Part shown: in pieces, positions 2,969 through 28,075 of the stretch
How positions within the stretch are numbered: position 1 is the stretch's first letter
How the letters are laid out: every line of letters begins with the position of its first letter
NCBI RefSeq assembly: GCF_019429625.1
Contig: NZ_JAHXRW010000014.1
Coordinates: 19,243 to 83,242 of the forward strand
Reading direction: 5' to 3'
Length of the DNA stretch: 64,000 nucleotides
From: Celeribacter sp. PS-C1
GTDB taxonomy: Bacteria > Pseudomonadota > Alphaproteobacteria > Rhodobacterales > Rhodobacteraceae
Notes under the pieces: generated by a model
What the model saw: the letters and a program-made list of their open reading frames with translations, nothing else
Told to the model about the DNA's origin: nothing
The model's database searches: none
Made by a program: the position numbers and the translations under genes

Positions 2969-3192
2969 TGACGGGAGTTTATCGTACTCTTTCACGTGAC
3001 AAAAAAATTGACGAACTCGAGCGCGCGCTCGACTACATCGGGACGATGATAACAGAACGGAGCGACGGCGAAACGTATACCGGCCTATATGAAACGCTCG
3101 AAGCAGAACTCGAAGGATTGCGCGCCCAAGACAATGTGAAAGAGCGTGTTCGTCAACGTCTTGCCGCGAGAACTATGCCTCTCGCGGCGTAA
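2968..3192 (+). CDS. Small charged helical protein, unknown function
   Basis: 74 residues, highly charged and probably helical (regular acidic and basic residues from about residue 10 to 66); no family recognised. The start is supported by a strong GGAGG at 2957-2961, seven bases before ATG, although that site lies inside a perfect hairpin. The 3' end overlaps the convergent integrase gene by 20 bases, which is unusual but tolerated in compact mobile elements. It could be an element-encoded regulator such as an excisionase; nothing in the sequence proves that. Confidence 0.5.
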   Translation: MTGVYRTLSRDKKIDELERALDYIGTMITERSDGETYTGLYETLEAELEGLRAQDNVKERVRQRLAARTMPLAA

Positions 3193-10701: not shown

Positions 10702-11636
10702 GCAAGCAATACAAACGCATCATGTTGGGACGCAAATCGGTTCATGCTGCTGAAGGCATTGCTGGTAATTACATCGGTGCGGGCTTTCTGCCTGAGATCG
10801 ATCTGAGCGACAAACTCCCGGACGAATGGCGCGTCTTCAACAAAGCTATGATCCCCGTCTTTCTCGCAGAAAACCCAGGCAAATCCAAAGTCGCGGCCGG
10901 TCTCGCCTGTGGCATGTTGCATACGATCTGCAAGGGGATGAAAAAGGGCGACGTGGTGATGACGCCGGATCAGGACGGGAATTACCACTTTGGTGAGATT
11001 ACAGGTGATTACTACTACGACTCAGGCGCACCACTCCCTCATAAACGTCCGGTCCATTGGTTCGACACGGTGGTGCATCGCAATGACCTGAGTGACCCAC
11101 TCCAATACTCGATTGGTTCAATCGGCACGGTCAGCTCGGTCGAGAAGCACCAAGACGAAATCGAGGCAATCATCGGGAACCGGAAAGCTCCGGTTTTGAT
11201 GGTTGCGGATGAGACGATTGAGGACCCGTCGGTCTTCGCGCTCGAGAAGCACCTCGAAGACTTCCTCGTCGCCAACTGGCCGAATACACCGCTCGGGCGG
11301 ACGCATGACATTTATACTGTGGACGGTGAAATCGTCGGACAGCAGTTTCCCTCTGACACCGGTCCCATCGACATTCTGGCGATTAGCAAAGACGGGAGCG
11401 AACTGCTTATCGTCGAGCTCAAGAAAGGCCGTGCGAGCGATAGCGTTGTTGGACAAATCCAACGTTACATGGGTTACGTCCTCTCGGAGCTCGCGGAAAA
11501 CACCCAGACCGTGCGCGGCGCGATTATCGCGCTCGACAATGACAAACGGATCGAACACGCGCTCCGCGTCGCCCCCAACATTGACTTCTATCGCTACCAG
11601 ATCCGGTTCGATCTTGAGAAGGTGACAGGCGCATGA
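10698..11636 (+). CDS. NucS/DUF91-like PD-(D/E)xK nuclease inside the hsd operon
   Basis: 312 residues. The C-terminal half (about 195-305) has a NucS-like nuclease core: ALEKHLEDFLVANW, then TGPIDILAI with the metal-binding Asp, LLIVELKKGRASDSV with the E-x-K pair, and GQIQRYMGYV. The N-terminal half contains a small beta domain (GDVVMTPDQDGNYHFGEITG, then PLPHKRPVHWF) that resembles PUA/EVE-like or Mrr-associated recognition modules; this is inference. It overlaps hsdM and hsdS by ATGA/GTGA-type four-base overlaps, so it is made together with the R-M enzyme. It could be an accessory restriction nuclease sensing modified DNA. It is not a standard hsd subunit. Confidence 0.75.
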   Translation: MSKQYKRIMLGRKSVHAAEGIAGNYIGAGFLPEIDLSDKLPDEWRVFNKAMIPVFLAENPGKSKVAAGLACGMLHTICKGMKKGDVVMTPDQDGNYHFGEITGDYYYDSGAPLPHKRPVHWFDTVVHRNDLSDPLQYSIGSIGTVSSVEKHQDEIEAIIGNRKAPVLMVADETIEDPSVFALEKHLEDFLVANWPNTPLGRTHDIYTVDGEIVGQQFPSDTGPIDILAISKDGSELLIVELKKGRASDSVVGQIQRYMGYVLSELAENTQTVRGAIIALDNDKRIEHALRVAPNIDFYRYQIRFDLEKVTGA

Positions 11637-12823
11637 GCGGAGGAAAGGCTTTGGAGCCGAAGCTACGATTTCCGGAGTTTGAGGGAAATTGGGAAGCAAC
11701 AAAATTTGGCGAATTAATCGACATAGCAAATGGACAGGTTGATCCGAAAGTCGAACCCTATGCGTCCATGCCACACATTGCGCCAGACAACATTGAAAGT
11801 CGGACAGGCAAACTGAAAAATGTGCGGTCGGCTTGCGAAGATGGCGTAATCTCCGGAAAATATGAGTTCGACGAAAAAGCTTTGGTTTATTCAAAAATCC
11901 GCCCGAACCTCAGCAAGGTCGCCAAACCTGGCTACCGCGGAATCTGCAGTGCTGACATGTATCCGATTTGGGCGAAGGCAGACAGATCAGACACCGGCTT
12001 CTTGTTTCATCTTATGCTTGGCGAGAAATTTGTCTCCGATGCCATAGCCGTTTCGATGAGAACGGGCCTTCCAAAGATTAATCGTCCGGATCTGAACGCA
12101 ATTCGCACTCACGTTCCGAAAACTATTCCAGAACAACAAAAAATCGCCGCCTTTCTCGATGCGGCGTCGAAGAAGATCGCGCTGTTGACAGAGAAGCGGG
12201 ACGGGCTTGTGGCGTATAAGCGCGGGGTGATGCAGCGGCTGTTCTCCGGCGCGCTGCGCTTCACCCGCCCCGACGGCTCTGCTTTTCCGGATTGGGAATA
12301 TTTCAGCTTAGACGATCTTGAAGCCCAAGGAAATGTCGAGCTTGGTCGCGGTCAAGTTATCTCAAAGGCGGACCTGCGCGCACATCCAGGAAACTATCCC
12401 GTATATTCATCTTCTGGCGTCGATGATGGAGAATTCGGACGCTATGGAAAGTGGATGTTTGATGAAGAGCTCATCACTTGGTCCATTGACGGTGGCGGTC
12501 GTTTTTTCCATCGAAAGTGTGGGAAATTTTCAATAACAAACGTCTCAGGTTTTCTTCGGATATTAAACTCGGAGCCAAACTATGGATACCTATACTCAGC
12601 ACTTTCATTTCTTCATCAACGTCTTGTCTTTGATTACCAGCTCAAAGCTCACCCGAGTGTAATAAGAAAGTTGTATAAGAGGATTCCGATCCCACACCCC
12701 GACGAACAAACCAAAATTGCCGAAGCCCTTTCCGCTCTCGACGCCAAAATCGACGCGGTGAGCGCCGAAAATTCCCAGATGGAGACCTTCAAGAAAGGCC
12801 TCCTGCAAAAGATGTTCGTTTAA
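11633..12823 (+). CDS. hsdS: Type I restriction specificity subunit HsdS
   Basis: 396 residues with two target-recognition domains, about 15-170 and 215-345. Each is followed by the conserved helical spacer, seen as PEQQKIAAFLDAASKKIALL and DEQTKIAEALSALDAKIDAV. Each TRD recognises one half of the split DNA target. The two TRDs are more AT-rich than the spacers and neighbours, as expected for parts exchanged by recombination. The start overlaps the preceding nuclease gene by four bases. Target sequence cannot be predicted by eye. Confidence 0.92.
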   Translation: MSGGKALEPKLRFPEFEGNWEATKFGELIDIANGQVDPKVEPYASMPHIAPDNIESRTGKLKNVRSACEDGVISGKYEFDEKALVYSKIRPNLSKVAKPGYRGICSADMYPIWAKADRSDTGFLFHLMLGEKFVSDAIAVSMRTGLPKINRPDLNAIRTHVPKTIPEQQKIAAFLDAASKKIALLTEKRDGLVAYKRGVMQRLFSGALRFTRPDGSAFPDWEYFSLDDLEAQGNVELGRGQVISKADLRAHPGNYPVYSSSGVDDGEFGRYGKWMFDEELITWSIDGGGRFFHRKCGKFSITNVSGFLRILNSEPNYGYLYSALSFLHQRLVFDYQLKAHPSVIRKLYKRIPIPHPDEQTKIAEALSALDAKIDAVSAENSQMETFKKGLLQKMFV

Positions 12824-12841
12824 GAGTTCTAAAGGAAGTCC

Positions 12842-15727
12842 ATGTCCATTCAGTCCGAAGCGCAGCTTGAGAAAGAACTGATCCAGCGGCTCACGGGGCT
12901 TGGCTGGGTCGAGGTGTCGGTGCCGGATGTCGCGACGCTCCACTCCAATCTCAAGGCGCAGTTGGAGGCGCATAACGGGCTGACCTTCTCCGATGAAGAG
13001 TTCAAGCGCATCCTGAACCGTCTCGAAAAAGGCTCTGTGTTCGACAAGGCCAAGGCACTGCGCGACCGCATGGTGCTTCACCGTGATGACGGGACGGTCA
13101 CGCATATCGAGTTTTTCAACAAAGAGGAGTGGTGCAAGAACCGCTATCAGGTCACGAGCCAGGTGACGGTCGAAGGGAGCTACAAGACCCGCTACGACGT
13201 GACGCTGCTCGTGAACGGGTTGCCACTTATTCAGATTGAGTTGAAGCGCCGAGGCCTCGGCCTCAAGGAAGCATTCAACCAGATCAACCGCTATCAGCGG
13301 CACAGCTTCTGGGCGGGATCGGCGCTGTTTCAATACGTCCAGATTTTCGTGATCTCGAACGGCGAGAACACGAAATACTACGCGAACAACCGCAATCAGA
13401 GTTTCAAGCAGACGTTCTACTGGGCAAAAGAGAACAACGACACGATCCAGCCGCTCGAGAAATTCGCGGACGCGTTTCTGGAGAAGTGTTTCGTCTCCAA
13501 GATGATCGCGAAATACATCGTGCTGCATGAGGGCGACAAGATCCCGATGATCTTGCGCCCGTATCAGTATTACGCGGTGGAGGCGATTGTGGACCGCGTG
13601 CAGAAGGGTCGAAAGAACGGCTATATCTGGCACACGACCGGATCGGGGAAGACGCTGACCTCGTTCAAGGCGAGCCAGATCATTGTCGAGAACCCGAAGG
13701 TGGCAAAGGTGGTCTTTGTCGTGGACCGCGCCGATCTCGATTACCAGACCACGAAAGAGTTCAACGCCTTCTCCGAAGGGTCGGTGGACGGCACGGACAA
13801 CACGAACAATCTTGTGAAGCAGCTCGCCGAACCGAAGGTGAAGTTGGTCGTGACGACGATCCAGAAGCTGAACACCGCGATCACCCGCGAACGTCACGAC
13901 GCGGCGATGGCGTTGATCAAGGACGAGCGCGTGGTGTTCGTGTTCGACGAATGCCACCGCAGCCAGTTTGGCGAGACGCACAAGAATATCGTGAACGCGT
14001 TCTCAAAGGCGCAGATGTTAGGGTTCACCGGCACGCCGATCCTGGCAGAGAACGCGGTGGGTAAGAAGACGACGACCGATCTGTTCGGCGAGTGCCTGCA
14101 TAAATACGTCATCACGGATGCAATCCGCGATGAGAACGTGCTCCGGTTCTCCGTCGAGTATTGGGGTCGTCTGAAGAAAAAAGACGGGTCGCTTTTGACC
14201 GACGAGGAAGTCGGCGGGATCGATCTCAAGGAGTTCTTCGAGAGTGATCAACGTGTCGAAGGCGTCGTCGATTGGGTGATCGAGAACCACAAGTCGAAGA
14301 CGCATGATCGGGACTTTTCGGCGATCATGTGCTGCAGCTCTGTCGATGCGTTGACGAAGACGTATGAGGCGTTCGCGAAACGCAAGGCCGAGGGTGCGCA
14401 CGATCTCAGAGTGGCGACGATTTTCACGTTTCAGGCCAATGAGGAGGATCAGGACGCGGATGGCCTGATCGGTGAGCCGGATGTGACGGGCGGACCTGTG
14501 AATGCGCAAACGATGCATAGCAGAGACAAGCTGGGAGGCTTCGTAGACGACTACAACACGATGTTTGGCACCAACCAGTCGGTGAAAGACGGAAAGGCCT
14601 TCTACGCCTACTACAAGGCCGTGGCGAAGCGGATGAAATGGCGTGACAAGAAGGACTTCGTGCCGGAGAAAGGCATCGATATCCTGCTCGTCGTTAACAT
14701 GTTCCTGACGGGGTTCGACGCGAAGACCTGCAACACGCTCTACGTCGACAAGAACCTCAAATACCACGGGCTGATCCAGGCATTCTCACGGACCAATCGC
14801 ATCCTCGGACAGAAGAAGTCGCAGGGGAATATTGTCTGCTTCCGGAACCTGAAGACGAAGGTCGACGAGGCGATCGCGCTGTTCTCGAACAAGGACGCGA
14901 ATGATAAGATCCTGATCGAGCCCTATCAAGTCTATGTGGACCACTTCAACGAGGCCGTGAGAGCGCTTCTGGACGTCGCGGAGACGCCCGGAGCAGTAGA
15001 CCGACTGGAAAGCGAAGAATACACTCTGGCGTTCGTCCAGGCGTTCAGAGAGCTCATGCGCATCCGCAATGTGCTGACGACGTTCGCCGAGTTCAGCGAT
15101 GATGATCTCTCGATGGAGGAGCAGAGGTTCGAGAAATACAAGAGCAAGTATCTCGACATCTATGACCAGCTAAAATCAGACCGCGACGGTCAACCGAAAG
15201 CCTCGATCATAGACGAGGTGGATTTCGAACTCGAACTGATCCGGCGCGACAAGATCAACGTGGCTTATATCCTCGCCCTACTCGCCTCCATTGGCGACGA
15301 AGAGGACGATGAGGCCGGGCGAGCCACAGCGGATGCGAAGAAGAAAGCGGTGCTCGATCTTCTCGGATCGGAGGCGCGCCTTCGCAGCAAGCGGGAGCTG
15401 ATCGAAGAGTTCATTGCTTCGTATCTGACGACGCGCCGCGGAGGTGATGAGACGCGAGACGCGTTCAACGAATTCTGGGACGAGAAACGCGAGCAGGCCT
15501 TCAAAGACCTTTGCGCAGAAGAAGGTCTCGATCCTGACGGGTTTGCGAAACTGATGCAATCTTACCAGTTCACCCAGAAAGAACCGCTTGCCGACGACGT
15601 TCTGCCTGTCCTGAAGAAGCCTGTCGGCATTCTACAGCGGAAGTCCGTGATCTCTCGAATTGTGGAACGGCTGAAGGGTTTCATCGAGACATTCGATGAG
15701 AATATGGGGGATGTGGAGGGGTTATAA
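12842..15727 (+). CDS. hsdR: Type I restriction endonuclease subunit HsdR
   Basis: 961 residues. The N-terminal nuclease domain shows YDVTLLVNGLPLIQIELKRR with the Asp and E-x-K catalytic residues (about 118-135). A superfamily 2 translocase follows: Walker A TTGSGKTLTSF (about 264), DECHRSQFGE (about 369), FTGTPI, and motif VI QAFSRTNRI. The C-terminal helical part (700-961) binds the methylase core. It translocates unmethylated DNA and cuts at a distance. It lies 18 bases after hsdS, in the same operon. All catalytic motifs look intact. Confidence 0.95.
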   Translation: MSIQSEAQLEKELIQRLTGLGWVEVSVPDVATLHSNLKAQLEAHNGLTFSDEEFKRILNRLEKGSVFDKAKALRDRMVLHRDDGTVTHIEFFNKEEWCKNRYQVTSQVTVEGSYKTRYDVTLLVNGLPLIQIELKRRGLGLKEAFNQINRYQRHSFWAGSALFQYVQIFVISNGENTKYYANNRNQSFKQTFYWAKENNDTIQPLEKFADAFLEKCFVSKMIAKYIVLHEGDKIPMILRPYQYYAVEAIVDRVQKGRKNGYIWHTTGSGKTLTSFKASQIIVENPKVAKVVFVVDRADLDYQTTKEFNAFSEGSVDGTDNTNNLVKQLAEPKVKLVVTTIQKLNTAITRERHDAAMALIKDERVVFVFDECHRSQFGETHKNIVNAFSKAQMLGFTGTPILAENAVGKKTTTDLFGECLHKYVITDAIRDENVLRFSVEYWGRLKKKDGSLLTDEEVGGIDLKEFFESDQRVEGVVDWVIENHKSKTHDRDFSAIMCCSSVDALTKTYEAFAKRKAEGAHDLRVATIFTFQANEEDQDADGLIGEPDVTGGPVNAQTMHSRDKLGGFVDDYNTMFGTNQSVKDGKAFYAYYKAVAKRMKWRDKKDFVPEKGIDILLVVNMFLTGFDAKTCNTLYVDKNLKYHGLIQAFSRTNRILGQKKSQGNIVCFRNLKTKVDEAIALFSNKDANDKILIEPYQVYVDHFNEAVRALLDVAETPGAVDRLESEEYTLAFVQAFRELMRIRNVLTTFAEFSDDDLSMEEQRFEKYKSKYLDIYDQLKSDRDGQPKASIIDEVDFELELIRRDKINVAYILALLASIGDEEDDEAGRATADAKKKAVLDLLGSEARLRSKRELIEEFIASYLTTRRGGDETRDAFNEFWDEKREQAFKDLCAEEGLDPDGFAKLMQSYQFTQKEPLADDVLPVLKKPVGILQRKSVISRIVERLKGFIETFDENMGDVEGL

Positions 15728-16034: not shown

Positions 16035-19000
16035 ATGTCCGCACTAGTAAGAACATTGGAAGCATTTCCCCGTGGTCGCACAACGGAAGAGCTTCTTGTC
16101 TTGATGGGGGCAGCATTCAGCCACTCGAAACGCATGCAATGCTTGGCGGAATTAGATGAGCTCGTGCGCTCGGGGCGAGCAGTGCGTGGCCATGATGGGA
16201 AGTGGCGATCCACGAAAACATACTTCTCGAATGAGAAGAACTCTTCCAGTCGCAACAGAGCGAGCACGGATAGCGCAGATGAAAACTTGCTTCACGCCGC
16301 ACGAGCGGAATTCTTCCTTTCGAAGATAAGTGAGGATGAACAACCCGAGCGTGGAGATCACAGCATCAAGCCCAGTGCCCTTTTGCGGTATTGGCAGTCA
16401 GCGCTTCGATCTGATCCGCGCGGCGCTACGACAGCTATCGCAGACCAACATGGCGTGGACTGGCATCTTGTCTCGGGCAAAGGGCCCGTTGTGCCGATGG
16501 AGGACGGCGTTGTCCGGCTGTTGATCGATCTGGATCAATTGAACGGCGAGTTCCGCCAGGCGCTTTTGCGTCGAGAGGCAAATGAGAATGCACTTGCGCT
16601 CGGTTGGCCGCTTGCTGTGGGGCGGCGTGGCGGCGTGCCTGTCGTCTGGCCTGTCGGTCTGCTGTCCGCATCGTGGCGCAGAACCGAAACCCATCTTGAA
16701 ATCCATATCGAAGCCGATGACGTGCTCGTTAACTCTGACTGGATCCACGGAGCAGCCCGCGCCACCTCTTGGTCCAGAACCGAGCTCGGGGAACTCTTTT
16801 CAGACGGCGACACGGTCGGACATCGCGCCGAAGATTTCTTGTTGAAACTCCGCGAAGCGGTCAGCACTCAGATCCGTGGTAAAGTGACTGGCGAAGCGCT
16901 AGTCACACAAGTAGATATGAACGCTCACGGCGTATACGATGTGGCCGCGCTTTTCCTGCCGGGAGAGTCGAGCTTTACCGCGGGAGCGAGCAAGGATCTA
17001 GATAGGCTTGCAACCTGGCCGGAGGAGAGGCTTGCGCGGTCAGCACTCGCGCCTGTGCTTGGCCTGAAACCGGATCTAGAGCTCAACACTACTGCAGCGA
17101 TAAACCTCGGGCCGCTAAACGGTGAGCAGCTTCAGGCCGTTCGTAATGCCGTCGAGGCACCTTTATCAGTTGTAACGGGGCCACCCGGCACGGGCAAAAG
17201 CCAGGCAATTGTCTCCATGGCTGCCTCAGTAATACTGAACGGTGGCAGCGTAATGGTCGCATCCAAGAACCATCAGGCACTCGACGCGGTGGAGGAACGT
17301 CTCGGAAGCATGGCGCCTGACGTGCCTTTTGTGGTGAGAACCCTTGACCCAGCGCGGGAAATAGACAGATCTTTCGCGGATATCCTTGGCGAATTGATTG
17401 TCGCTGAATCTGCTGTATCACAGCTACTCCCAGATGGGCTGATCCGTGACAAAATTCGTGCTCTGGCCGCTGAACGCGCAGGGGCGCTTGATGCGTCGTT
17501 AGAAAAAGCACGCCTAGAGTGCGAGATAGCAGATATCCTTGATAGGATCGAAGCTAGAGAACAACACAGAGCCGCGAACTCGGAAGAGGCTTCTGTTACA
17601 AAAAGGGCAAAGCAATCGAACTTCTGGGAGCGCGTTCTGGAAATGGTCACCGCGCTCTTCGGCAAACGCAGTGATGCGTCTCCTAGCGAGGAAGTGTCGC
17701 CCACGACGCTATCCGAAATGTCGCTTTCTGAGCTGAAAGTCTATCTTGAACAACTCAGAGCGAAGAGCCGCGCGCTTGTTCTCGAGACAGACACCATCGC
17801 GCTGGCAGCAGAAATCCAAGCACTCGTCGTAAAATATCTACCTGAAGAGATGAAGCGCCGTGTCAAGTTAAGTGAAGATCGTCGTCTTGCTCTGACTGAT
17901 GCAAAGGACGAAAGCGATTTTCAGGGGAAAGGGCCACTTCCTTCCGAAATCGCGCACAAGATACTTGAGCATCGTCCGCTTTGGCTCGTGTCGGTGCTCG
18001 GCGCCCCCAAGAGAATTCCACTCGACGATGGTATGTTCGATCTGGTGATCTTCGACGAGGCCAGCCAATGCGACATCGCCTCAGCAATGCCGCTGTTCGC
18101 ACGAGCCAAGCGGGCTGTCGTAGTGGGCGATGACCGCCAATTGTCGTTCATCCCACAATTGGGACGCGCACAGGATCGCAATCTGATGCAAGCGCAGGGT
18201 CTACCGTCCAAAGGTATGGCAAGGTTTTCTCAGAGCCGCCGGTCCCTCTTCGATTTCGCCCTCCGTGTGCCTGATGTGCCGCGTGTCACACTGCGCCATC
18301 AATATCGGTCCGCAGGCCAGATTGTGGATTACATCAGCGGTGAATTCTACGGCGGGGAGCTAATCGTCGCCCAACCACCCGTCGGCGTCAAAGTGCCAAA
18401 TAATGCGAAACCCGGAATCGCCTGGACCCATGTGCCCGCTCCCGCCATTCCGTCGAAAGGCAACATCAACAAGGCTGAGGCGCAAGCCATCGCGCGCGAA
18501 GTCAAAACGCTGCTGGTGGATCAAGGATATGATGGTTCCATAGGAGTAATCACGCCATTCCGTGCGCAGATCGAGGCAATCAGCGCTGCTGTCGAGGGCA
18601 ACATCCCGCAGCGCCTCTTGGAAAAAGCCGAGTTCCGGATAGGAACGGTGGATGGCTTTCAGGGACAAGAACGGGACCTGATCCTCTTTTCGCCTGTGCT
18701 AGGAGCCAGCAGCGCAGTGACGAGCCTATCTTTTGTCCAGAAAGACCCACGCCGCTTGAATGTGGCGATCTCCCGTGCTCGAGCTGTTGCCCACGTTTTC
18801 GGGGATCTCGACTTTGCCCGTAGCGGTAAGGTGCGTGCATTGGCCCGCCTCGCTGCAACCGCCACCGAGCCCCGAAAGCGCAGCGGCGAAGGTCGCTTTG
18901 ACAGCGAATGGGAGAGCCGCGTGTTTTATGCGCTGAAAGACCGTGGCATGGAGCCTTTCCCTCAACACGAGATTGCCGGTCGCTACCTTGATTTTGCGCT

Positions 19001-19205
19001 TTTCGGTAAGAACGGGGTCAAACTCGATCTCGAGGTGGACGGACGCCGCTGGCATCAGACCGCTGACGGGCGACGGAAGACCTCAGATCTCTGGCGCGAT
19101 GAACAATTAAAATCACTCGGCTGGCGGGTGCGCCGGTTCTGGGTGGACGAACTTTCTCAAGATATGGATGCCTGCCTTGACCTCGTCGAACAAGACCTTT
19201 CCTAA
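16035..19205 (+). CDS. SF1 (UPF1-like) helicase with C-terminal DUF559-type nuclease
   Basis: 1056 residues. Order: a winged-helix-like N-terminus (about 1-60); an uncharacterised region (to about 350) that may include an OB-like barrel; a UPF1/DNA2-type helicase with Walker A TGPPGTGKSQ (about 380), DEASQCD (about 672), GDDRQL (about 696), RHQYRS (about 753), VDGFQGQERD (about 872) and VAISRAR (about 909); and a C-terminal PD-(D/E)xK domain of the DUF559/MTES_1575 type (YLDFALFG, LDLEVDGRRWH, RDEQLKSLGWRVRRFW). A charged, partly coiled insert sits at 465-620. It is first gene of a five-gene operon with McrB/McrC-like proteins, matching the helicase-nuclease of CoCoNuT systems. Likely unwinds and cuts foreign nucleic acid; DNA or RNA is not resolvable. 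Confidence 0.85.
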   Translation: MSALVRTLEAFPRGRTTEELLVLMGAAFSHSKRMQCLAELDELVRSGRAVRGHDGKWRSTKTYFSNEKNSSSRNRASTDSADENLLHAARAEFFLSKISEDEQPERGDHSIKPSALLRYWQSALRSDPRGATTAIADQHGVDWHLVSGKGPVVPMEDGVVRLLIDLDQLNGEFRQALLRREANENALALGWPLAVGRRGGVPVVWPVGLLSASWRRTETHLEIHIEADDVLVNSDWIHGAARATSWSRTELGELFSDGDTVGHRAEDFLLKLREAVSTQIRGKVTGEALVTQVDMNAHGVYDVAALFLPGESSFTAGASKDLDRLATWPEERLARSALAPVLGLKPDLELNTTAAINLGPLNGEQLQAVRNAVEAPLSVVTGPPGTGKSQAIVSMAASVILNGGSVMVASKNHQALDAVEERLGSMAPDVPFVVRTLDPAREIDRSFADILGELIVAESAVSQLLPDGLIRDKIRALAAERAGALDASLEKARLECEIADILDRIEAREQHRAANSEEASVTKRAKQSNFWERVLEMVTALFGKRSDASPSEEVSPTTLSEMSLSELKVYLEQLRAKSRALVLETDTIALAAEIQALVVKYLPEEMKRRVKLSEDRRLALTDAKDESDFQGKGPLPSEIAHKILEHRPLWLVSVLGAPKRIPLDDGMFDLVIFDEASQCDIASAMPLFARAKRAVVVGDDRQLSFIPQLGRAQDRNLMQAQGLPSKGMARFSQSRRSLFDFALRVPDVPRVTLRHQYRSAGQIVDYISGEFYGGELIVAQPPVGVKVPNNAKPGIAWTHVPAPAIPSKGNINKAEAQAIAREVKTLLVDQGYDGSIGVITPFRAQIEAISAAVEGNIPQRLLEKAEFRIGTVDGFQGQERDLILFSPVLGASSAVTSLSFVQKDPRRLNVAISRARAVAHVFGDLDFARSGKVRALARLAATATEPRKRSGEGRFDSEWESRVFYALKDRGMEPFPQHEIAGRYLDFALFGKNGVKLDLEVDGRRWHQTADGRRKTSDLWRDEQLKSLGWRVRRFWVDELSQDMDACLDLVEQDLS

Positions 19206-20682
19206 GTCAAACAAACACTCCCTGATCGCTGGCATCCTTGCCACGACCGCACTCGTCAGTGTCGGGATTCTGGGCTTCAGTGTGAGCAAGCTTGACCGTG
19301 AATTCGGGAACATTATTCGCGATCGTGCGAGCTATGAAAAGCGCCTCTCCGAGATAACGACAGAAGTCGACGATCAGGAAACCCGCCGTGAGGCCGCATG
19401 GCAAGAACGCCAAAATATCAATTCGGAAATCACGTCGCTGATATCGCAAAAGGCGGATATCCAGCAGGACGTTGACGACTTGGTGTCCGATCGGGACAAT
19501 CTACTTTCGCGCATCGACGGCATGAAAACGGATTTGGCCGAAGCGAATGAGACATTGAAAGAGGCCGCTCAGCTGGAAGCTCTCGTTGCGGACCGCCGTG
19601 AAGCGCTCGACGAGCTCTTAGGTAGCGTAATCAAAAAGACGCAAGAACTCGATGATCTGAACAGTAAGCTCAGCGACGCCCGTGTAGCCCTCTCGGATGC
19701 CGAGTCTGCCGCTCAAACCGCCGAGCAGAGGCTAGCTACCCTGCGATCTGATATCTCAAACGAGAGCGACAAGCTTGAAGCCCTACTGACACAAGTGCGT
19801 GGCTTGGAGGCAGACCGCACGGAAAAGAATAGGCTCCAGGACGAACTGGTGGCCTTGAAACTTGATCGTGACAACCTCCTCAACGACACGGAAAACTTGG
19901 TAGCGCGTCAAATCGCTGCGGAAGAGAAACTCGGACAGACGCAGAGTGCACTGACCGTCGCCAGCGCAGAGCTGAAGAGCGCGGAGGACGCCTTATCCGA
20001 CGTGCGAAGCGAGGCGGAGCGCGTGCGAGCCGAGCGTGAACTTGCAGTGCGTGCGCGGGCTGATGCCGAAGCTCGCACCGCTGAAATGACGCGCCAGATT
20101 ACAGATTTGGAAGCCCGGAAATCAGGCCTTGAACGCGAAGTCGCAGATCTCAACAGCCGTCGCGCGGCGCTTGCCGTGGAGGTCGAGGGCTTCAATGAGA
20201 CGAAGCAGCGTTTGGATGCCTTACTCCGTCAGGAGGCTGCGCTTTCCGAACGCGTAACGACTCTGACACAAGAACAGGAACGGCTCACGCCCGTCCTAAC
20301 CGACCTAGAACAGCAGAACGCGACGCTCCGCTCTGAGCAGGCCGATGCCGAAGCAGACTTGCAGAAGTTGCGAGAGACGCTACAGGCGCTCAACGGGCGG
20401 CGTGGCACTCTGACACAATCCATTGAGGACCTCGAGGCGCGTGAAACAGACGCCCGTGCGACTGCAGAACAAGCACAAAGCGAGTCTGCGGCACGCCAAA
20501 CTGAACTTGAAGACTTGCGATCAAAACAGGTGACATTGGAGAGAGAGATTTCTGCGCTGCGCAGCATACTGGAATCGCTCCAGAGCCAAGTTCAAGCCGA
20601 GCCCGACGCTTTAGCCTCCGCACAGCAACCTTCGGCCATCCAACCAACCCAAGAGACGCCCGTCGAAGCTGCGGCAGAGTGA
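19168..20682 (+). CDS. Membrane-anchored long coiled-coil protein
   Basis: 504 residues. A single hydrophobic helix at about 17-39 (LIAGILATTALVSVGILGFS) is followed by almost unbroken heptad-rich coiled coil to about 480, then a Pro/Gln/Glu-rich tail. No enzymatic motif is visible. The start overlaps the helicase 3' end by 38 bases, indicating co-translation. Extensive coiled coils encoded next to an McrB-like ATPase are a hallmark of CoCoNuT systems; its partner is probably the next gene's product, which also has an N-terminal membrane helix and coiled coil. Probably a scaffold or sensor at the inner membrane (inference). Confidence 0.75.
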   Translation: MPALTSSNKTFPKSNKHSLIAGILATTALVSVGILGFSVSKLDREFGNIIRDRASYEKRLSEITTEVDDQETRREAAWQERQNINSEITSLISQKADIQQDVDDLVSDRDNLLSRIDGMKTDLAEANETLKEAAQLEALVADRREALDELLGSVIKKTQELDDLNSKLSDARVALSDAESAAQTAEQRLATLRSDISNESDKLEALLTQVRGLEADRTEKNRLQDELVALKLDRDNLLNDTENLVARQIAAEEKLGQTQSALTVASAELKSAEDALSDVRSEAERVRAERELAVRARADAEARTAEMTRQITDLEARKSGLEREVADLNSRRAALAVEVEGFNETKQRLDALLRQEAALSERVTTLTQEQERLTPVLTDLEQQNATLRSEQADAEADLQKLRETLQALNGRRGTLTQSIEDLEARETDARATAEQAQSESAARQTELEDLRSKQVTLEREISALRSILESLQSQVQAEPDALASAQQPSAIQPTQETPVEAAAE

Positions 20683-20694
20683 GGATCATAGACC

Positions 20695-22722
20695 ATGTTG
20701 ACCAATCTAACTTTGATCGTGCTGATCGTTGCCGCCGCTCTTGCTCTGTTTACCATCGTTCTCTTCGTGCTCGCACTCAATCACGACAAAGTGGTGACAG
20801 CTCAAGGCCCTCTTGCCACGCTTGAAGCACTCATGCAGCAAATCTCGCAGAAAGAGGAACTTAAGGCGGATCTCGAGGGTGAGTTGGAAAAGCGGCGTGA
20901 GGCGCTTGCCAATGTCGGCAATATCCAGGCCGAGGTCGATGCACTAGTGCGTCAGAAGGATGAACTTCTCTCGGAATGGGCAACACTCGAGGAGCGTCGT
21001 TCCGAGGTGCAAGCGGTGCGCTCAGAGATGGAGGAAGCGATGATCGAGCGTCAGAACCTCGACGCAGAGCTTGCACAAAGGCGCGAAGAGTATCTGGCAG
21101 TTAAGGAGCGGCTGGACAAGGCAGAAGGACTGGTCTCACGCATCGAAGCTCTCAAGTCCGAACATGAGGAACTGGCACATCGCACCGAAGAGATGCGGAA
21201 TGAGGTGAGACGCCTCGAAGATGCCGAGAAACGCGTTGCAGATCTCGACGCGAAAACTGCAGGGCTCGAAGCAGAATCTGCACGACTGGACGGTCGTATC
21301 GCAGCCAAAGAGGCCGAGCTAGAAGAAAGCAAAGCCCGCATTGTAACTGAGCGCGAGGCCTTGGTCGCGGGCCAAGTAGAACTGTCACGCGTTCAGTCCA
21401 CTCTCGCCGCATCTGAACTTGAAGCTGCAAGTATGCAAGGAGAAATCAACAGCCTTTCGGAAAAACGTGAGACAATGCAAGCACGCCTAACCTATCTCGA
21501 AGGAGAGATTCAAAGGGCCGAAGGTGCCGTGTCGGGCACGGGCGGTGCTGAGGCAGTTGATCCGCTCAAAGAACTCAAAGAAGCACCGAAAGTCATCACA
21601 GAACTCCGTAAGCTACCCGAACGCCCTTCTCAATTGCCAGAGGCTGAGGCCATTCTAAACGTTCAGCGACAGCTCAAAGCTAGCGGGCTCGAATATCCGC
21701 GCCGCATCATTCGCGCTTTCCATACGGCGATGAAAGTGAATGAAAGCACACAAATGGCCGTGCTGGCCGGGATTTCCGGCACGGGAAAGAGCCAATTGCC
21801 GCGGCAATATGCCAAAGCGATGGGGATCGGCTTTCTACAGGTTCCCGTTCAGCCGCGTTGGGACAGCCCGCAGGACCTCATGGGCTTCTACAACTACATC
21901 GAGGGCAAATTTCGTCCGACGGATATGGCACGAGCTCTCTGGGCGCTTGATCCGCTCAACAATGACGAGGCGCTTGAGGATCGCATGATGATGGTCCTTC
22001 TCGATGAAATGAACCTCGCTCGAGTCGAGTATTATTTCTCCGATTTCCTTAGTCGCCTCGAAAGCCGCCCTAGCCCATCCAACGTCTCGGACGAAACCCT
22101 GCGTAAGGACGCCGAGATTGAGCTGGAGATCCCTAAACTCCTCAACCCTCCCCGTATTTTCCCAGGCTATAACCTGTTGTTCGCCGGAACAATGAATGAA
22201 GACGAGAGCACCCAATCGCTATCTGACAAGGTAGTGGACCGCGCTAATATCCTGCGCTTCTCCGCCCCTCAAAAGATCAAGAGCGGTAAGGCGGAAGGCA
22301 CTGCGCCCGAACCTGCGGCGCTGTCGCAGACCGATTGGCAGCGTTGGCTTCGCCCTGTGTCCCAAGTCGAAAGCGATCGCACACTGCAATCAGGGCTGGA
22401 GACCATGGTCGATATTATGAAAGAGTTCAAACGTCCCTTCGGTCACCGTCTCGGCCGTGCCATCATGGCCTACGCTGCAAATTATCCAGAACTGGAAGGC
22501 TCCAACGGCATTCGTGACGCATTGGCTGATCAGGTTGAGATGCGCCTTTTGCCGAAACTTCGCGGTGTCGAGGTCGATAACACCGACCCGCAGTTCTCGA
22601 AGCTGCGGAGTTTTGTAGAACAAGAGCTCGGCGATCATGCGCTGGCCGAAGCAATCGCTCATGCTCGCATGGAAGCGGAGGACTCGACTGGCCAGTTCGT
22701 CTGGACCGGGGTCACACGCTGA
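20695..22722 (+). CDS. Membrane-anchored coiled-coil McrB-type AAA+ ATPase
   Basis: 675 residues: one membrane helix (about 5-27, LTLIVLIVAAALALFTIVLF), a long coiled coil (about 40-285), then an McrB-type AAA+ domain. Walker A is GISGTGKSQLP (about 359), Walker B VLLDEMNLARVEYYFSDFL (about 433) and the sensor strand LLFAGTMNED (about 493), followed by DKVVDRANILRF. McrB normally hydrolyses GTP to drive the McrC nuclease; here the DNA-recognition domain of classical McrB is replaced by coiled coil and a membrane anchor. ATG at 20695 follows a GAGG. The stop overlaps the next start (TGATG). Closest known organisation is the CnuB-like ATPase of CoCoNuTs. Confidence 0.85.
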   Translation: MLTNLTLIVLIVAAALALFTIVLFVLALNHDKVVTAQGPLATLEALMQQISQKEELKADLEGELEKRREALANVGNIQAEVDALVRQKDELLSEWATLEERRSEVQAVRSEMEEAMIERQNLDAELAQRREEYLAVKERLDKAEGLVSRIEALKSEHEELAHRTEEMRNEVRRLEDAEKRVADLDAKTAGLEAESARLDGRIAAKEAELEESKARIVTEREALVAGQVELSRVQSTLAASELEAASMQGEINSLSEKRETMQARLTYLEGEIQRAEGAVSGTGGAEAVDPLKELKEAPKVITELRKLPERPSQLPEAEAILNVQRQLKASGLEYPRRIIRAFHTAMKVNESTQMAVLAGISGTGKSQLPRQYAKAMGIGFLQVPVQPRWDSPQDLMGFYNYIEGKFRPTDMARALWALDPLNNDEALEDRMMMVLLDEMNLARVEYYFSDFLSRLESRPSPSNVSDETLRKDAEIELEIPKLLNPPRIFPGYNLLFAGTMNEDESTQSLSDKVVDRANILRFSAPQKIKSGKAEGTAPEPAALSQTDWQRWLRPVSQVESDRTLQSGLETMVDIMKEFKRPFGHRLGRAIMAYAANYPELEGSNGIRDALADQVEMRLLPKLRGVEVDNTDPQFSKLRSFVEQELGDHALAEAIAHARMEAEDSTGQFVWTGVTR

Positions 22723-24227
22723 TGTCGAAACTCGGGCGACCATGGTCCGGCTCTTACATTCCTGACACGCAAGGTTTTTCACGCAAAGACTGCCTGTTGA
22801 GTGAATACGCGCCCGCGCCTCTAGACCGCGAAGAACGGGTCCTCCTGATGAAGGGCGAATTCCTTCGTCAGGACCGCTCTCTCTACCTACATCCCTACCC
22901 GAAACGCGCTGATGCAGCTGCTCCTATTCGAATGGGGTTTCCTGTGCGGCCAAAGCTCGGAAACGAACCTCGCGATGATGAGGAGCGCTTCGCTCATGCC
23001 TCGCTGACGCGGATGAACGAGGTGCTCGCACGTATTCAGGAGCTTGAGGAAGCGCTTGATGACCCTGAAAACGTCTGGTCGCGGTTACGCGAGGCGTGGC
23101 GGAGAGCTGAAAACGAGGAAGACCCTCGTATGGCCGAAATCGTCAAACAGGCGCGTGATCTCACACCTGTGTTGAAGAGCCTTGAAGCGCGCATCCGTCG
23201 AGTGCTGCGCCGCAATCGAGAACTTACCCCGATTGACCGGGTGCAGGAAATGGATCGAGCCTCTATGGTTTGGCTCTCCCGTCAGCCTGGACGGACCGTT
23301 GTGGAGCGGGCTGGAGCATCGCAGCGTATTCTTTCCACAGTCCGTCGTGAGAACTTTGACACTCTTGAGAACCGCGTCCTTCACGCATACACAAAGCTCG
23401 CAGAGGCTGTGGCACGGGAATGGCTCCGCGAGCACCCCAGAGCCCGTGAGAGTGCCCGCTACAAATCCGTCCATACCTATCGCAAACTCCTACGAGCTTT
23501 CTCTCGGATGCTCGCTGAAATTGATGTCGGTATTGCTGCTCCTCCCGTCACACCCAACTATGTTTTGATGCAGGACAGAGGCTACAGGCAAACTTTCAAG
23601 GCTTGGGAACGACTTCTGAGGCGCGAAAAGACCCTCGATGAGCTTTGGGCCTGGCAAGCTCAGGCTTGGACCGATTTTGCAGTCCTAGCCATCGTTCTCG
23701 CGCTTGACGAGCTTGATGAGTCTGAACTCATCGCACAGTCCCCTGTCGTCTGGAACGAAGAGGCTGTAACCGGACGTTGGTTTCATCAAGACAGACCACT
23801 CGCCGTCTTTTGGCTCAAACAGACGGGCAGAATTGTGGAGGTCCAATCGCGTCCAGAAACTCCGGGCTCACTTTTAACCGCAGCTCGCGCCCATGTGGCT
23901 CTACGTATTACCGACCCACAGCGAGAAGATGTCTCTCGCCGCGTAGCCGTCTGGACACCTCATGCAATGGAGGAGATCAATCTAACCGAAGCTGTCGACG
24001 AATGCTTCGGTCTAGTAAACCAGATTCAGCAGGTGCGAATTGGCGAGGTGCTTCGCCACGGAGTGATCATCGCACCCGCCCATGCGCGAGCCGGAAGCGA
24101 AAGTAGAAACAGCGGAGGAATGCGTGTCGACGGGATTGCCCTCGGCGCCTCGGGCGAAAGTCTGGCCCGAGGAATGGAAGCAATACGGTCATTTGCCCGC
24201 AGCGAGATCTATCGGGAGGCGCAATGA
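22722..24227 (+). CDS. DUF2357/McrC-like partner of the AAA+ ATPase
   Basis: 501 residues. The central helical block with NFDTLENRVLHAYTKLAEAV (near residue 212) matches the D-T-x-E-N-R signature of DUF2357/McrC-type proteins, which dock on McrB-like ATPases. A charged helical segment lies at 90-180. At the C-terminal side the motif where the PD-(D/E)xK nuclease would be expected reads GRIVEVQSRP, with Gln instead of the catalytic Lys, so the nuclease may be degenerate or my alignment wrong. It overlaps the preceding gene by one base and the next by ATGA. It probably forms the effector or bridge of the complex. Confidence 0.6.
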   Translation: MSKLGRPWSGSYIPDTQGFSRKDCLLSEYAPAPLDREERVLLMKGEFLRQDRSLYLHPYPKRADAAAPIRMGFPVRPKLGNEPRDDEERFAHASLTRMNEVLARIQELEEALDDPENVWSRLREAWRRAENEEDPRMAEIVKQARDLTPVLKSLEARIRRVLRRNRELTPIDRVQEMDRASMVWLSRQPGRTVVERAGASQRILSTVRRENFDTLENRVLHAYTKLAEAVAREWLREHPRARESARYKSVHTYRKLLRAFSRMLAEIDVGIAAPPVTPNYVLMQDRGYRQTFKAWERLLRREKTLDELWAWQAQAWTDFAVLAIVLALDELDESELIAQSPVVWNEEAVTGRWFHQDRPLAVFWLKQTGRIVEVQSRPETPGSLLTAARAHVALRITDPQREDVSRRVAVWTPHAMEEINLTEAVDECFGLVNQIQQVRIGEVLRHGVIIAPAHARAGSESRNSGGMRVDGIALGASGESLARGMEAIRSFARSEIYREAQ

Positions 24228-26599
24228 GAAGAATCCGTCTTTGCGGCTATGACGTTAACGGCGTGCGCGACATGTCCGCGCGCAACTGGATGATCCTTCC
24301 AGGAGATGAGGAGGTCTTCGACTCCAGCTTTCTGAGTCACGGGGATCGATTTGGTGGCGTCGTGCGCGTTGGCGCTGAAGCAGGGGTGAATTGGATTGGC
24401 GGTCGTCAGGCCGCGCTTGCCCCTCATGGAAGAGGTAACGGATGGGGGAAGGTCGGGGCGGAAGGGCTTCGCGTTCCTATTCTTGATCTCTTACATGGGC
24501 GAACAGACGATGCCATCGCCCTCGGAAGTGCCTTCACTGGGCTTGTAAGTGGCGCACGCTTTAACGCTGTAGCGATTGACGAGATCGCCGAGGATGTAGA
24601 GATATATCAAGAGCGCCTGCTCGCCGCTCTGAGCGCCGAACGAATCTCCAATCCGATGCTAGTCTGGCGCTCGGTTCTCGCAGTCCTACACCATATGCGA
24701 AACACCCAGGTCCGAGAAAGGTCTGTTATTGGCGTAGTGTCTCACGGGTTCGATGGGCTCCGACTGCAAAAGCTACGGATTCTCAAACAGGCCGGAAACG
24801 CGAAAGAGGTGCTTGCACCCGAACGACGCCGCACAGCTATTCATGTGCCGTTCACTCTGAGCTACAGGCAGCTCGTGTCTAGCGCGCGGGAGCGCCTTCT
24901 TGGTGGCGAGGCACTGTCAGCCCGCAACGCGCATATGGCCCAGGCGCGATCTGCTGCAAATCTTGCGCTTGGCGAGACCTGCGAAGCGGAGGTTCTTAGA
25001 AAGAGCAACGGTGATTGGGATGTTCTTCGAGCGCAGGCACCGCTGGACTTGGAAATACCGAAATTACCGCACAAGGAATTCGACTGGCTATCTGACTGTG
25101 ACGAAATTCTGTTCGAAAGCCTCACGACGGGAGATGTGCGTCGGACTGTTCTCTCGGCTTGCGAACACGCGATAGGCCGAAAAATCACGGCATTACCACA
25201 GGAAGCTGTCGCGCTTGGCGCGTTAGAGGCGGCCAAACGCGTCTCAGAGGGCGACCCGGTCTTTTTCGACTTCTTGCCCAAAATTTCAACCATCGTATAT
25301 GCTGACGGCGAGGCGGCCAGTTACGATCTTATTGAAGACAGCGAGACACTTGTGGCAGGTCAGCTCTACCGCAGTCCCAAGCCCGCACGTCTCGGCCTGC
25401 CTGGAGGACAGTCCGAAATTTCCATCTACCTTCGCAAAGAGGCGCAAACTTGGCCGCGTAAGGCGACCGTCAGCATTGGCGCTTCCTTGAAGGACGACAC
25501 GCCCGTTTCTCTCTATGTCGAACAGAAGCCTGCGGCTGGACGTGCACGTATCGTGATGCACGCTGACACTATCAGCCACCAGTTCGTCGTCGACTGGGAT
25601 CTAGCAGAGGAAATTAAGATGGACTGGGATGCGCTTATCGCCTCCCTGGAGGTTCAAAAACCGTCCATCCCGAACAAACTGGTGCTCCCATGCTCTTCAC
25701 TTGCATGGGATGAAAGTAATCGAGGACCATCTCTCTATGAGCTTCTGGAGCAGAACGTTGATCGGCATAGAGTGGACTGGGCATCTTTGGCTGTAAAGCT
25801 GGCCTCTCGGCCGAACCAAACCTATTGCATTTCGAGTGAGGGCGCGCTCCCAACCGAAGTGAGCGACGAGGCAGAAATGCAGCTCAATCGGCTCACCGAA
25901 CGGGCGATCGCCGAAACACGCGAACGGCTTTCAGGCCGCAGGGACGACGACAATGAAGCTCTCAAGTTCCTGACTTGGCAATTCAAGCGAGCTCCTGATG
26001 AAGTTGCAGACTATCTGCTGGAGTGTATTTCCGCCCGAGATCTGAGGATGTTCAAGCACCCGTTTGTAATGAATCATATGAGCTGGGTTCTGGTGTATTA
26101 CGGCGCGGGGCGGATCATTAGTGACCCGGATCGCGAGCGCAAACTCATGGATGCAATCTATTCTCGGCCATGGCAGGAATGGAACTGGAGGGTTGAGGTT
26201 GCGGCTCTTGCAGTGCTTCTGTCTCGTTCCGACAGCGCGCCCCTATTTCTGACCCCTGAGCGGGTAGAGATTGCTTTTCTGCGCCTTAGACACGAACTGA
26301 AAGAGGCAATCGGCTCCGCTTACACAAAGTTCTCCTACACCCCTTTCCTGCTCGTTGGTCTGCTAAGATACAGAATGAAAGAGCCTTGGGCACTGGTGCT
26401 CGGACGAGATCAGAAAGCCGCAGTCCTGGCAGAAGATGTGAAAGCCGTTCTAAAGGATCTGGAACGCCGCGCACGACGCAACGAGAAGATCAAGCGAACC
26501 TACGAGAAACGCGCTTCTCAACTTTCCCAAGTTCTCGAAGAGCTTGAAGGAAGCGGCACCAACCCTGATTTGCTGCTGGATCTTTTCCATTCAACATAA
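24224..26599 (+). CDS. Large putative Hsp70-like protein of the CoCoNuT-like operon
   Basis: 791 residues, soluble. The N-terminus RLCGYDVNGVRDMSARNW resembles a divergent phosphate-1 loop of actin/Hsp70-fold ATPases, and VIGVVSHGFDGLRLQKLRIL (about 168) sits where Hsp70s have their PAYFNDAQR helix. The canonical DLGGGT phosphate-2 motif is not visible, so the call is tentative. A beta-rich middle (380-520) could be a substrate-binding-like domain, and the C-terminus (620-791) is helical. It is last in the operon, started by GGGAGG and ATGA-coupled. Published CoCoNuT loci include RNA-binding Hsp70 homologues in this position, which supports the reading. It could also be an unrelated large defence protein. 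Confidence 0.5.
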   Translation: MRRIRLCGYDVNGVRDMSARNWMILPGDEEVFDSSFLSHGDRFGGVVRVGAEAGVNWIGGRQAALAPHGRGNGWGKVGAEGLRVPILDLLHGRTDDAIALGSAFTGLVSGARFNAVAIDEIAEDVEIYQERLLAALSAERISNPMLVWRSVLAVLHHMRNTQVRERSVIGVVSHGFDGLRLQKLRILKQAGNAKEVLAPERRRTAIHVPFTLSYRQLVSSARERLLGGEALSARNAHMAQARSAANLALGETCEAEVLRKSNGDWDVLRAQAPLDLEIPKLPHKEFDWLSDCDEILFESLTTGDVRRTVLSACEHAIGRKITALPQEAVALGALEAAKRVSEGDPVFFDFLPKISTIVYADGEAASYDLIEDSETLVAGQLYRSPKPARLGLPGGQSEISIYLRKEAQTWPRKATVSIGASLKDDTPVSLYVEQKPAAGRARIVMHADTISHQFVVDWDLAEEIKMDWDALIASLEVQKPSIPNKLVLPCSSLAWDESNRGPSLYELLEQNVDRHRVDWASLAVKLASRPNQTYCISSEGALPTEVSDEAEMQLNRLTERAIAETRERLSGRRDDDNEALKFLTWQFKRAPDEVADYLLECISARDLRMFKHPFVMNHMSWVLVYYGAGRIISDPDRERKLMDAIYSRPWQEWNWRVEVAALAVLLSRSDSAPLFLTPERVEIAFLRLRHELKEAIGSAYTKFSYTPFLLVGLLRYRMKEPWALVLGRDQKAAVLAEDVKAVLKDLERRARRNEKIKRTYEKRASQLSQVLEELEGSGTNPDLLLDLFHST

Positions 26600-26701: not shown

Positions 26702-28075
26702 TCAAGGAACATCTGAAGCGGTCTCAGCGCCTGCTTCGATCAGCTCGAAAGCGTCGGCCAGACGTGAAAGCGCTTCTTCTTGAGGATCTCTCGAATTTGT
26801 CATGATCTTCGTGACATGAAGATAGTGAGAAGCCGCGCCGCCGAGGTTCTCAGCCTGCAGAGGTTCTTTGTGAGCAAGAATGCGTTCGACCTCTGACAGC
26901 GGGACGTGGAGTTCTTTCATCAAAGTTGCTGCAGTCCGTCTCAGGTCATGCCTATTCCAGTCGCTCGTTCCAGTCTCTTCGTAAATCGCTGTCTGAATAC
27001 GCGTCCAGTTCCCGAGTTTACCGCCCACACTGTTTGGAAAGACCAGCTCTTCGGGTTTCCCCTGATCCCAACCTGGCAGCGAACGCAAGATATCAATGGC
27101 TGCGCCCGACAGTGGAAGATCTTGGCCTCGCGCACCTCCTTTCGTCGATTTCACGCTGGGCTTTCGCCAAACACAGTTTTTCCGATCTAGATCACGCCAA
27201 CGCATGGCAACGACCTCCTCGCGACGCGCAGCAGTGTAGAGCATGAAGCGCAAAGCGATCGGGCGAAAATCTTGGGCAGCGTCGATCTTCATTCCTCCGA
27301 TTTGTGGCGCGGGATATTTCAGCAGAGGTAGAATTTTTTCCAACTCGACTTGGGTCAGAACGCGCTTCCGCATTCCGGTGATCGACGGATCAGTCGTGGC
27401 GGGGTCATGCACGGCATCAAGGCTCGCAACCTCCAGCTTGGGAACTCGACCAGCCCCAAGCTTTGCATATGACTTCCGTCCAGCCGCCCAATCGAGCAAA
27501 GGCGCAAGATAAGCACGGGCTTTCGACGCTTGTCCATTTGCGGATTTCTTCTCTTCGGTCAGGCGAACCGGCTTGTAATTGTTCACACACTTCGCGAACG
27601 CTTCCACTTTGATTGTCAAAACAGGCTTATCAAGCAGCGGTTCGAAGACGCGTTCCACAACTCGTCCCGCTTGTGTCCGCTCAGTCTTCGGCCCAGCTGG
27701 AGCCCAAACCTTCTTTTCACCAAAGGCGGCTTCATATTCGCGAAGCAACTCTCGAAGTGTCGGCGCATCCTTCGCACCTTGCACTGCAGCGCGCTTACGT
27801 CGCTTCTCTGCAGTAACGTCCACGCCCGCCTTCAACTCAAGACGCCTCCGCGCCGCCTCATCTCGCGCCTGCTTGAGAGACATCTCTGGATATTGACCGA
27901 GGGTAACGGTTTTCAGTTCGTTGCTGGCGTCTCGTGCTTGGAGAGCGAAAGAGATTTTGCCCTTTGCTGAAATTCTCGCGCGGAGGCCGGTCATCGCGGC
28001 ATCGCTGATTGTCTGGGACTTTCCAGTGGGTTTCAGTTTTCGAAGGTAGGCATCGGTAAGGGCAGTCTTGGTCAT
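26702..28075 (-). CDS. P4-type tyrosine integrase of element B
   Basis: 457 residues. The N-terminal DUF4102 arm-binding domain (1-95, ending LGQYPEMSLKQARDEA) and the catalytic domain both look complete: Arg in TAARREEVVAMRW, Lys in KSTKGG, HDLRRT (HxxR), the His of ILAHKE and the Tyr in ASHYLH. This family integrates islands at tRNA genes. Its start faces the tRNA-Phe remnant 170 bases away, and its leader carries the paired AGGCTACA repeats found again at the far end of element B. It is not closely similar to integrase A, so the two elements have independent enzymes. Confidence 0.92.
   Translation of the reverse strand: MTKTALTDAYLRKLKPTGKSQTISDAAMTGLRARISAKGKISFALQARDASNELKTVTLGQYPEMSLKQARDEAARRRLELKAGVDVTAEKRRKRAAVQGAKDAPTLRELLREYEAAFGEKKVWAPAGPKTERTQAGRVVERVFEPLLDKPVLTIKVEAFAKCVNNYKPVRLTEEKKSANGQASKARAYLAPLLDWAAGRKSYAKLGAGRVPKLEVASLDAVHDPATTDPSITGMRKRVLTQVELEKILPLLKYPAPQIGGMKIDAAQDFRPIALRFMLYTAARREEVVAMRWRDLDRKNCVWRKPSVKSTKGGARGQDLPLSGAAIDILRSLPGWDQGKPEELVFPNSVGGKLGNWTRIQTAIYEETGTSDWNRHDLRRTAATLMKELHVPLSEVERILAHKEPLQAENLGGAASHYLHVTKIMTNSRDPQEEALSRLADAFELIEAGAETASDVP

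Follow-up and report, generated by a model that had tools for sequence, protein, structure and literature searches.

The locus considered here raises two questions: what do five tightly packed genes in a 64 kb window of the Celeribacter sp. PS-C1 genome encode, and where in the cell would their products act? The window, that is, the whole stretch of DNA analyzed (57.7% GC, from a host genome of 3.87 Mb), carries these genes on one strand (Table 1). Inspection of their open reading frames confirms the touching or overlapping arrangement that an initial annotation had described, with a 38-base overlap between genes 1 and 2 (19168-19205), a 12-base gap between genes 2 and 3 (20683-20694), and the junction motifs TGATG (22720-22724) and ATGA (24224-24227) between genes 3 and 4 and genes 4 and 5, respectively. 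The same annotation had proposed a CoCoNuT operon, a reading that proved right and that profiles, AlphaFold2 models and a CnuB tree sharpen to Type III-B. The assignment of the five genes as CnuH-CnuA-CnuB-CnuC-CnuD is supported, and every Type III-B feature that was clearly tested was found. The operon is thus a well-formed, compact five-gene member of a published type so far predicted from sequence; what is new is that both of its coiled-coil components carry conserved N-terminal hydrophobic segments, predicted to be membrane anchors.

As described in the main text of Bell et al. (2024, eLife, PMC11090510), Type III-B CoCoNuTs are found mainly in Alphaproteobacteria and combine a CnuH bearing a fused Vsr-like nuclease with a separate CnuA, a CnuB and a CnuC. 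The nuclease of this CnuC is inactivated, the Hsp70-like CnuD is encoded separately and TerY-P genes are absent. Further features of the type are an N-terminal wHTH and OB-fold in CnuH, an Ig-like domain at the CnuC N-terminus and HEAT-like repeats in CnuD. The window operon presents a UPF1-like CnuH with an insertion and a fused Vsr-like nuclease, a separate CnuA, a CnuB with a coiled coil and an NxD McrB-like GTPase domain, an inactivated DUF2357 CnuC and a separate CnuD of Hsp70 fold, and no TerY-P genes were found among 27 window proteins scanned with Pfam. CnuB phylogeny agrees with this gene set. In a tree built from 53 ATPase domains, CnuB belongs to a Type III-B clade (35 sequences, support 100/99) that excludes 12 sequences labeled III-C-like and two each labeled III-A-like and I-B-like; several branches are long. 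The reference labels in this tree were assigned from gene context and kinship, with no published reference sequences of PMC11090510 and no CoCoPALM sequences among them, and the III-A-like sequences could also be Type II. Of the III-C-like proteins, every tenth was kept; L057 and L060 were omitted from the control ATPases, and five Type III-B sequences (L013, L018, L019, L031 and L034) were omitted as similar to retained ones. The gene-by-gene calls of the initial annotation are borne out by the evidence given below, namely an SF1 (superfamily 1) helicase-nuclease for gene 1, a coiled-coil McrB AAA+ protein for gene 3, a DUF2357/McrC-like protein for gene 4 and a possible Hsp70-like protein for gene 5.

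To place the operon among its relatives, we used one scan of GTDB genomes, which gave 46 loci, mostly alphaproteobacterial and two titled Gammaproteobacteria. Thirty-nine of these contain CnuH, an open frame, CnuB with a P-loop, CnuC and CnuD in that order, and in 34 of 44 loci the CnuB stop codon overlaps the start of the CnuC match by its final base; the five-gene arrangement therefore exceeds chance. Contig ends truncate five of the seven other loci; of the remaining two, L041 is partial, and L047 is a distant locus whose CnuB is interrupted. L041 lies on a long contig and holds only a C-terminal part of CnuC together with CnuD, without a CnuH or CnuB match, and is probably a decayed copy. 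In a Loktanella metagenome-assembled genome (L006, 2983-7068), a single open frame spans CnuC and CnuD, which recalls the fusion of the two described for Type III-A. A divergent H-A-B-C-D operon, L071, occurs in a genome sharing only its phylum with the window's, with identities in the aligned parts of 43% for CnuH, 37% for CnuB, 36% for CnuC and 22% for CnuD. Judged by its sequence, L071 is an extension of the predicted range of Type III-B beyond Alphaproteobacteria. Promoter-like and terminator-like sites occur at about chance level.

The system is rare and sporadic: among 295 genomes of the family, 8 carry it, counting the one from which the window comes. Such a distribution argues against an alternative in which the AAA+, Hsp70-like and helicase proteins, carried on islands, serve membrane quality control or stress responses and have no role in defence. 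An Hsp70 fold and an AAA+ domain are indeed present, and Bell et al. propose a stress role for Pseudo-Type I-B (PMC11090510); the low third-position GC, the integrase and defence neighbours and a nuclease with conserved residues, all described below, speak against this alternative as well, and we consider it improbable. The operon is likely an anti-phage system, for which the GajB-like helicase, the type I restriction-modification (R-M) genes and the recombinases of the island were also counted.

Inspection of CnuH reveals Pfam matches to AAA_11 and AAA_12 followed by C-terminal MTES_1575 and DUF559, and the nearest Protein Data Bank (PDB) chains are NAM7/UPF1 (E 3.8e-20). An insertion of ~210 residues follows Walker A, with a weakly conserved stretch at ~445-640 between the helicase motifs, and a winged-helix-like stretch at the N-terminus is read from sequence pattern only. 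Helicase and nuclease motifs are conserved across 35 CnuH sequences, and residues E960, D986, E1000, D1002, H1007 and D1022 of the nuclease are invariant in 35/35 (window included). In four closely similar Rhizobium loci (L017, L018, L019 and L031), the best CnuH frame covers 71% of the window CnuH.

This architecture bears directly on what the system would cut. The published CoCoNuT prediction is RNA targeting (PMC11090510), and one alternative holds that the operon performs RNA restriction or abortive infection on soluble targets. In this view, CnuD and CnuH target RNA of viral or host origin, which they bind and cleave, and the role of the membrane segments is confined to parking the complex. 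The closeness of CnuH to the RNA helicase UPF1/NAM7 favors this alternative, as do the reading by Bell et al. of the Hsp70-like CnuD, the UPF1-like helicase and RNA-binding domains elsewhere in the family, and the statement in the same paper that RNA can be degraded by every one of these effector nucleases, the Vsr-like ones among them (PMC11090510). Against it, the window operon has a Vsr-like PD-(D/E)xK nuclease as effector and not HEPN, and the same source describes this fold as generally DNA-specific. The substrate may be RNA or DNA, as the data are compatible with both.

CnuB matches PADLOC PDC-M26A (E 1.6e-42) and, at 20.0 bits, falls just under the 22-bit Pfam cut-off for AAA_5. Its P-loop GISGTGKS (359-366) and its TMNEDE motif, which contains the NxD signature, are present in 40/40 sequences. 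SMC/Rad50-type coiled-coil profiles match over residues 36-306, where the heptad power is reached by only 1 of 500 shuffles. Searching PDB sequences with the CnuB ATPase turned up no McrB match. CnuC scores above the Pfam cut-off for DUF2357 (E 8.4e-7). The same kind of search with CnuC gave no McrC match, and it was fold comparison that indicated McrC: the AlphaFold2 model (pLDDT, predicted local distance difference test, 82) finds as best folds chains from the McrBC structures 7vsr, 6hz4 and 6ut6, the length of these chains being that expected of McrC. Strands at residues 2-56 of the model, which bear on the question of an Ig-like domain, are barely covered by this comparison. The nuclease lysine of CnuC is lost in 40/40 sequences, its position holding Q in 35, L in three and M in two, and the CnuC nuclease is probably dead. 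Within residues 357-375, E373 is kept in 40/40 and Q stands at the lysine position in 35/40, an ExQ pattern. An ExQ site is active in BglII, so residual CnuC nuclease activity is possible.

CnuA gives SMC/Rad50-type coiled-coil profile matches over residues 39-484, its Pfam matches are to coiled-coil families only and all under their cut-offs, and its own heptad periodicity is weak, with 32 of 500 shuffles equally high. An open frame occupies the CnuA place, between CnuH and CnuB, in 39/39 loci. CnuD has no Pfam match; the Hsp70 fold appears in its AlphaFold2 model, in which helices at residues 548-790, relevant to the question of HEAT-like repeats, lie outside the span covered by the fold comparison. 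Compared with the long DUF2357 protein that a III-A-like operon encodes, a CnuD profile matched weakly and at the C-terminus only (E 0.011); with one Synechocystis gene it gave no match, so an Hsp70 part common to CnuD and the III-A fusion is not shown by sequence.

The initial annotation had further suggested that genes 2 and 3 are membrane proteins, and their N-terminal hydrophobic segments are indeed conserved. A segment was scored where the hydropathy peak reached 1.5 or more within the first 120 residues, each frame being read from stop to stop; for the CnuB of L004 the limit was 200 residues. The count covered 39 loci, leaving out L006, L008, L015, L020, L028 and L041, which have no CnuH match, and L047, which has no intact CnuB. 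CnuA carries such a peak in 39/39 loci, against 103 of 1950 shuffles, and CnuB in 38/39, against 177 of 1950. For the single miss, the CnuB of L009 (7739-8430), the segment is encoded upstream of a frame break; this frame change after the membrane segment is either an assembly error or real decay. Both segments are also present in the divergent operon L071, outside the class. Because peaks of 1.6 are common over whole shuffled proteins (336 of 1950 for CnuA and 691 of 1950 for CnuB), the argument rests on position and conservation. Retention of both anchors in 38-39 of 39 loci is left unexplained if they only park a complex acting on soluble RNA, and taking this together with the nuclease evidence above, we regard the soluble-RNA alternative as rather unlikely.

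Main-text descriptions of the type do not anticipate this property. In the main text of PMC11090510, the N-terminus of Type II and III CnuB is given only coiled coils and the Type III-B CnuA no other recognizable domain; the word "transmembrane" is used six times there and four times in the preprint PMC12458937, in neither case for Type III-B or III-C. Open literature searches found no further paper on CoCoNuT membrane segments. The conserved CnuA and CnuB segments are therefore absent from the published main text's description of the type, from which the window operon differs in this respect. By contrast, the proposal of a "surface-localised sensor" exceeds the evidence, and it is safer to read the segments as an inner-membrane tether.

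III-C-like relatives share the CnuB segment, and those of III-A-like and I-B-like kind that were examined lack it. The III-C-like set, labeled from kinship with a Synechocystis locus, consists of the best 120 of 7738 proteins less 10 under 600 aa, and its members bearing organism names are cyanobacterial. Among these 110, a peak of at least 1.6 lies in the first 80 residues in 98, against 67 of 2200 shuffles; six of the remainder reach 1.3-1.6 and six have no peak. The segment occurs in none of eight control ATPases (three III-A-like, two of them equal in length and scores, two I-B-like and three from other operons), in none of three further relatives and in neither of two I-B-like CnuA proteins. 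A hydrophobic N-terminus joined to a coiled coil on an McrB protein also characterizes CoCoPALM (PMC11090510), a related group of NxD McrB proteins fused to an FtsB-like transmembrane and coiled-coil part, and the operon could in principle belong there instead. CoCoPALM differs in its signal-peptidase-family partners, and CnuH and CnuD are unmentioned for it in the passage of that paper considered here. Here, neither the five operon genes nor the other scanned window proteins include signal-peptidase or pilus partners, CnuB has no FtsB/DivIC match at E 0.1, and the Type III-B components CnuH, CnuA and CnuD are all present, which makes a CoCoPALM highly improbable.

The orientation of the segments was approached through their charge flanks. 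For CnuB, N-out is favored in 34/35 unique sequences from the first methionine and 20/35 untrimmed, while for CnuA N-in is favored, the N-flank being more positive in 27/37 unique sequences. Applied to III-C CnuB (again from the best 120 of 7738), the same test gives an impossible result, 46 versus 8 of 98, and charge-flank topology is therefore a lead only. In 22/37 unique CnuA sequences, no methionine precedes the segment and the start is unsure. Given the reversal in III-C CnuB and these unsure starts, the positive-inside rule was dropped as proof of topology. The coil of the Type III-B CnuA may face the periplasm and act as an envelope-side trigger.

Taken together, we lean modestly toward a Type III-B CoCoNuT in which the CnuA and CnuB segments are predicted inner-membrane anchors and the complex would likely bind and cut phage nucleic acid during entry or shortly afterwards; predicted membrane anchoring would place the attack on viral nucleic acid near the point of cell entry. 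CnuB would form a ring driven by nucleoside triphosphates and stimulated by CnuC as McrC stimulates McrB, and the coiled coils of CnuA and CnuB would hold the components together at the membrane. The Hsp70-like CnuD could recognize the target, which may be RNA or an assembly of phage protein and nucleic acid. With its UPF1-like helicase and Vsr-like nuclease, CnuH would be the cutting arm that unwinds and cuts this target. The segments make the site of action testable: Types III-B and III-C may work at the membrane, like SNIPE and Zorya, or on bulk cytoplasmic RNA.

Comparison with known systems gives this proposal some context. SNIPE (Nature 2026, PMC13190303) and Zorya (PMC11890865) both meet phage DNA by acting at the membrane. 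SNIPE shares an N-terminal membrane anchor and is a DNA-cutting defence acting at genome injection, but it is a single, unrelated protein (DUF4041 and GIY-YIG) whose action has been shown experimentally (PMC13190303). Zorya resembles the predicted assembly in its inner-membrane complex, long cytoplasmic tail and nuclease effector; in contrast, ZorAB is an ion-driven motor, and McrB, Hsp70-like and UPF1-like parts are unnamed in its abstract (PMC11890865). Druantia Types I and II, which are known to act against phages, count as a fourth CoCoNuT type, Type IV, in a 2025 preprint (PMC12458937). They share a CoCoNuT-type operon, a Type II CnuB homologue with an extended coiled coil and a helicase with a Vsr-type domain, but have a YprA-like SF2 helicase, an inactivated CnuB and an inactivated Vsr domain (PMC12458937), whereas the CnuB P-loop and the Vsr residues are conserved in the window operon. 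Type III-C, found in Cyanobacteriota, resembles it in the CnuB segment, in the TMNEDE motif (110/110, from the best 120 of 7738) and in its neighboring ATPase clade, and differs in that the Synechocystis example has a PLD-type nuclease gene in place of the Vsr fusion and a gene without a match to the CnuD profile. The initial annotation had called CoCoNuTs computational predictions without broad experimental proof, and our searches of openly accessible literature found no published experiment on Types I-III.

Table 1 Coordinates of the operon, its features and its neighbors in the window
Feature	Positions	Strand	Description
CnuH (gene 1)	16035-19205	+	UPF1-like SF1 helicase and C-terminal Vsr-like PD-(D/E)xK nuclease
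Vsr-like nuclease domain of CnuH	18903-19202	+	residues 957-1056; MTES_1575 E 3.4e-12
CnuA (gene 2)	19168-20682	+	separate long coiled-coil protein, 504 aa, N-terminal hydrophobic segment
Predicted transmembrane segment of CnuA	19222-19278	+	residues 19-37; hydropathy peak 2.21
CnuB (gene 3)	20695-22722	+	N-terminal hydrophobic segment, coiled coil, McrB-like NxD AAA+
Predicted transmembrane segment of CnuB	20713-20769	+	residues 7-25; hydropathy peak 3.23
NxD signature of CnuB	22195-22203	+	N501-E502-D503; motif as defined in PMC11090510
CnuC (gene 4)	22722-24227	+	McrC homologue: DUF2357 helices, C-terminal PD-(D/E)xK-like domain without catalytic lysine
CnuD (gene 5)	24224-26599	+	Hsp70-like nucleotide- and substrate-binding domains ~4-475, then helical C-terminal part ~548-790
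Type I R-M operon	9142-15727	+	neighbor, outside the CoCoNuT; ends 307 bases upstream of CnuH
HsdM	9142-10701	+	type I R-M operon
PDC-S02-like gene	10698-11636	+	312 aa; PADLOC candidate PDC-S02 2e-147; NucS_C endonuclease domain
HsdS	11633-12823	+	type I R-M operon
HsdR	12842-15727	+	type I R-M operon
Tyrosine integrase	26702-28075	-	neighbor; Arm-DNA-bind_3 and Phage_integrase; directly downstream of CnuD

The surroundings of the operon are those of an island. The five genes have a third-position GC of 0.55-0.61 and the integrase one of 0.54, compared with 0.77-0.78 in HsdM and HsdR and 0.7-0.8 in most longer open reading frames right of the integrase; because of this difference, the five genes look acquired, with an origin differing from that of the R-M genes. 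The integrase likely marks the neighborhood of the island's mobile end. In the one same-genus genome used for an empty-site comparison, the right-flank genes are split over two contigs.

The type I R-M system that the initial annotation had placed beside the operon does adjoin it here, but the adjacency is not conserved. Relatives of the window's HsdR, HsdM and HsdS lie near only 4 of the 46 loci (L007, L008, L027 and L029), a count that other type I families would escape; the R-M neighbor is accordingly not a fixed part, and it was rejected as a component of the system. No relatives of the window's integrase, recombinase, resolvase or HipA were found near the 46 loci at E 1e-6. Within the R-M operon, the PDC-S02-like gene overlaps both HsdM and HsdS. 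Further upstream are mobile and toxin-type genes, namely a DUF6538 tyrosine recombinase (3173-4531), a resolvase (5997-6887) and a HipA-like kinase (6922-8160), and an 834-aa UvrD-family helicase (23-2524), for which GajB of Gabija is the top PADLOC match (3.4e-57).
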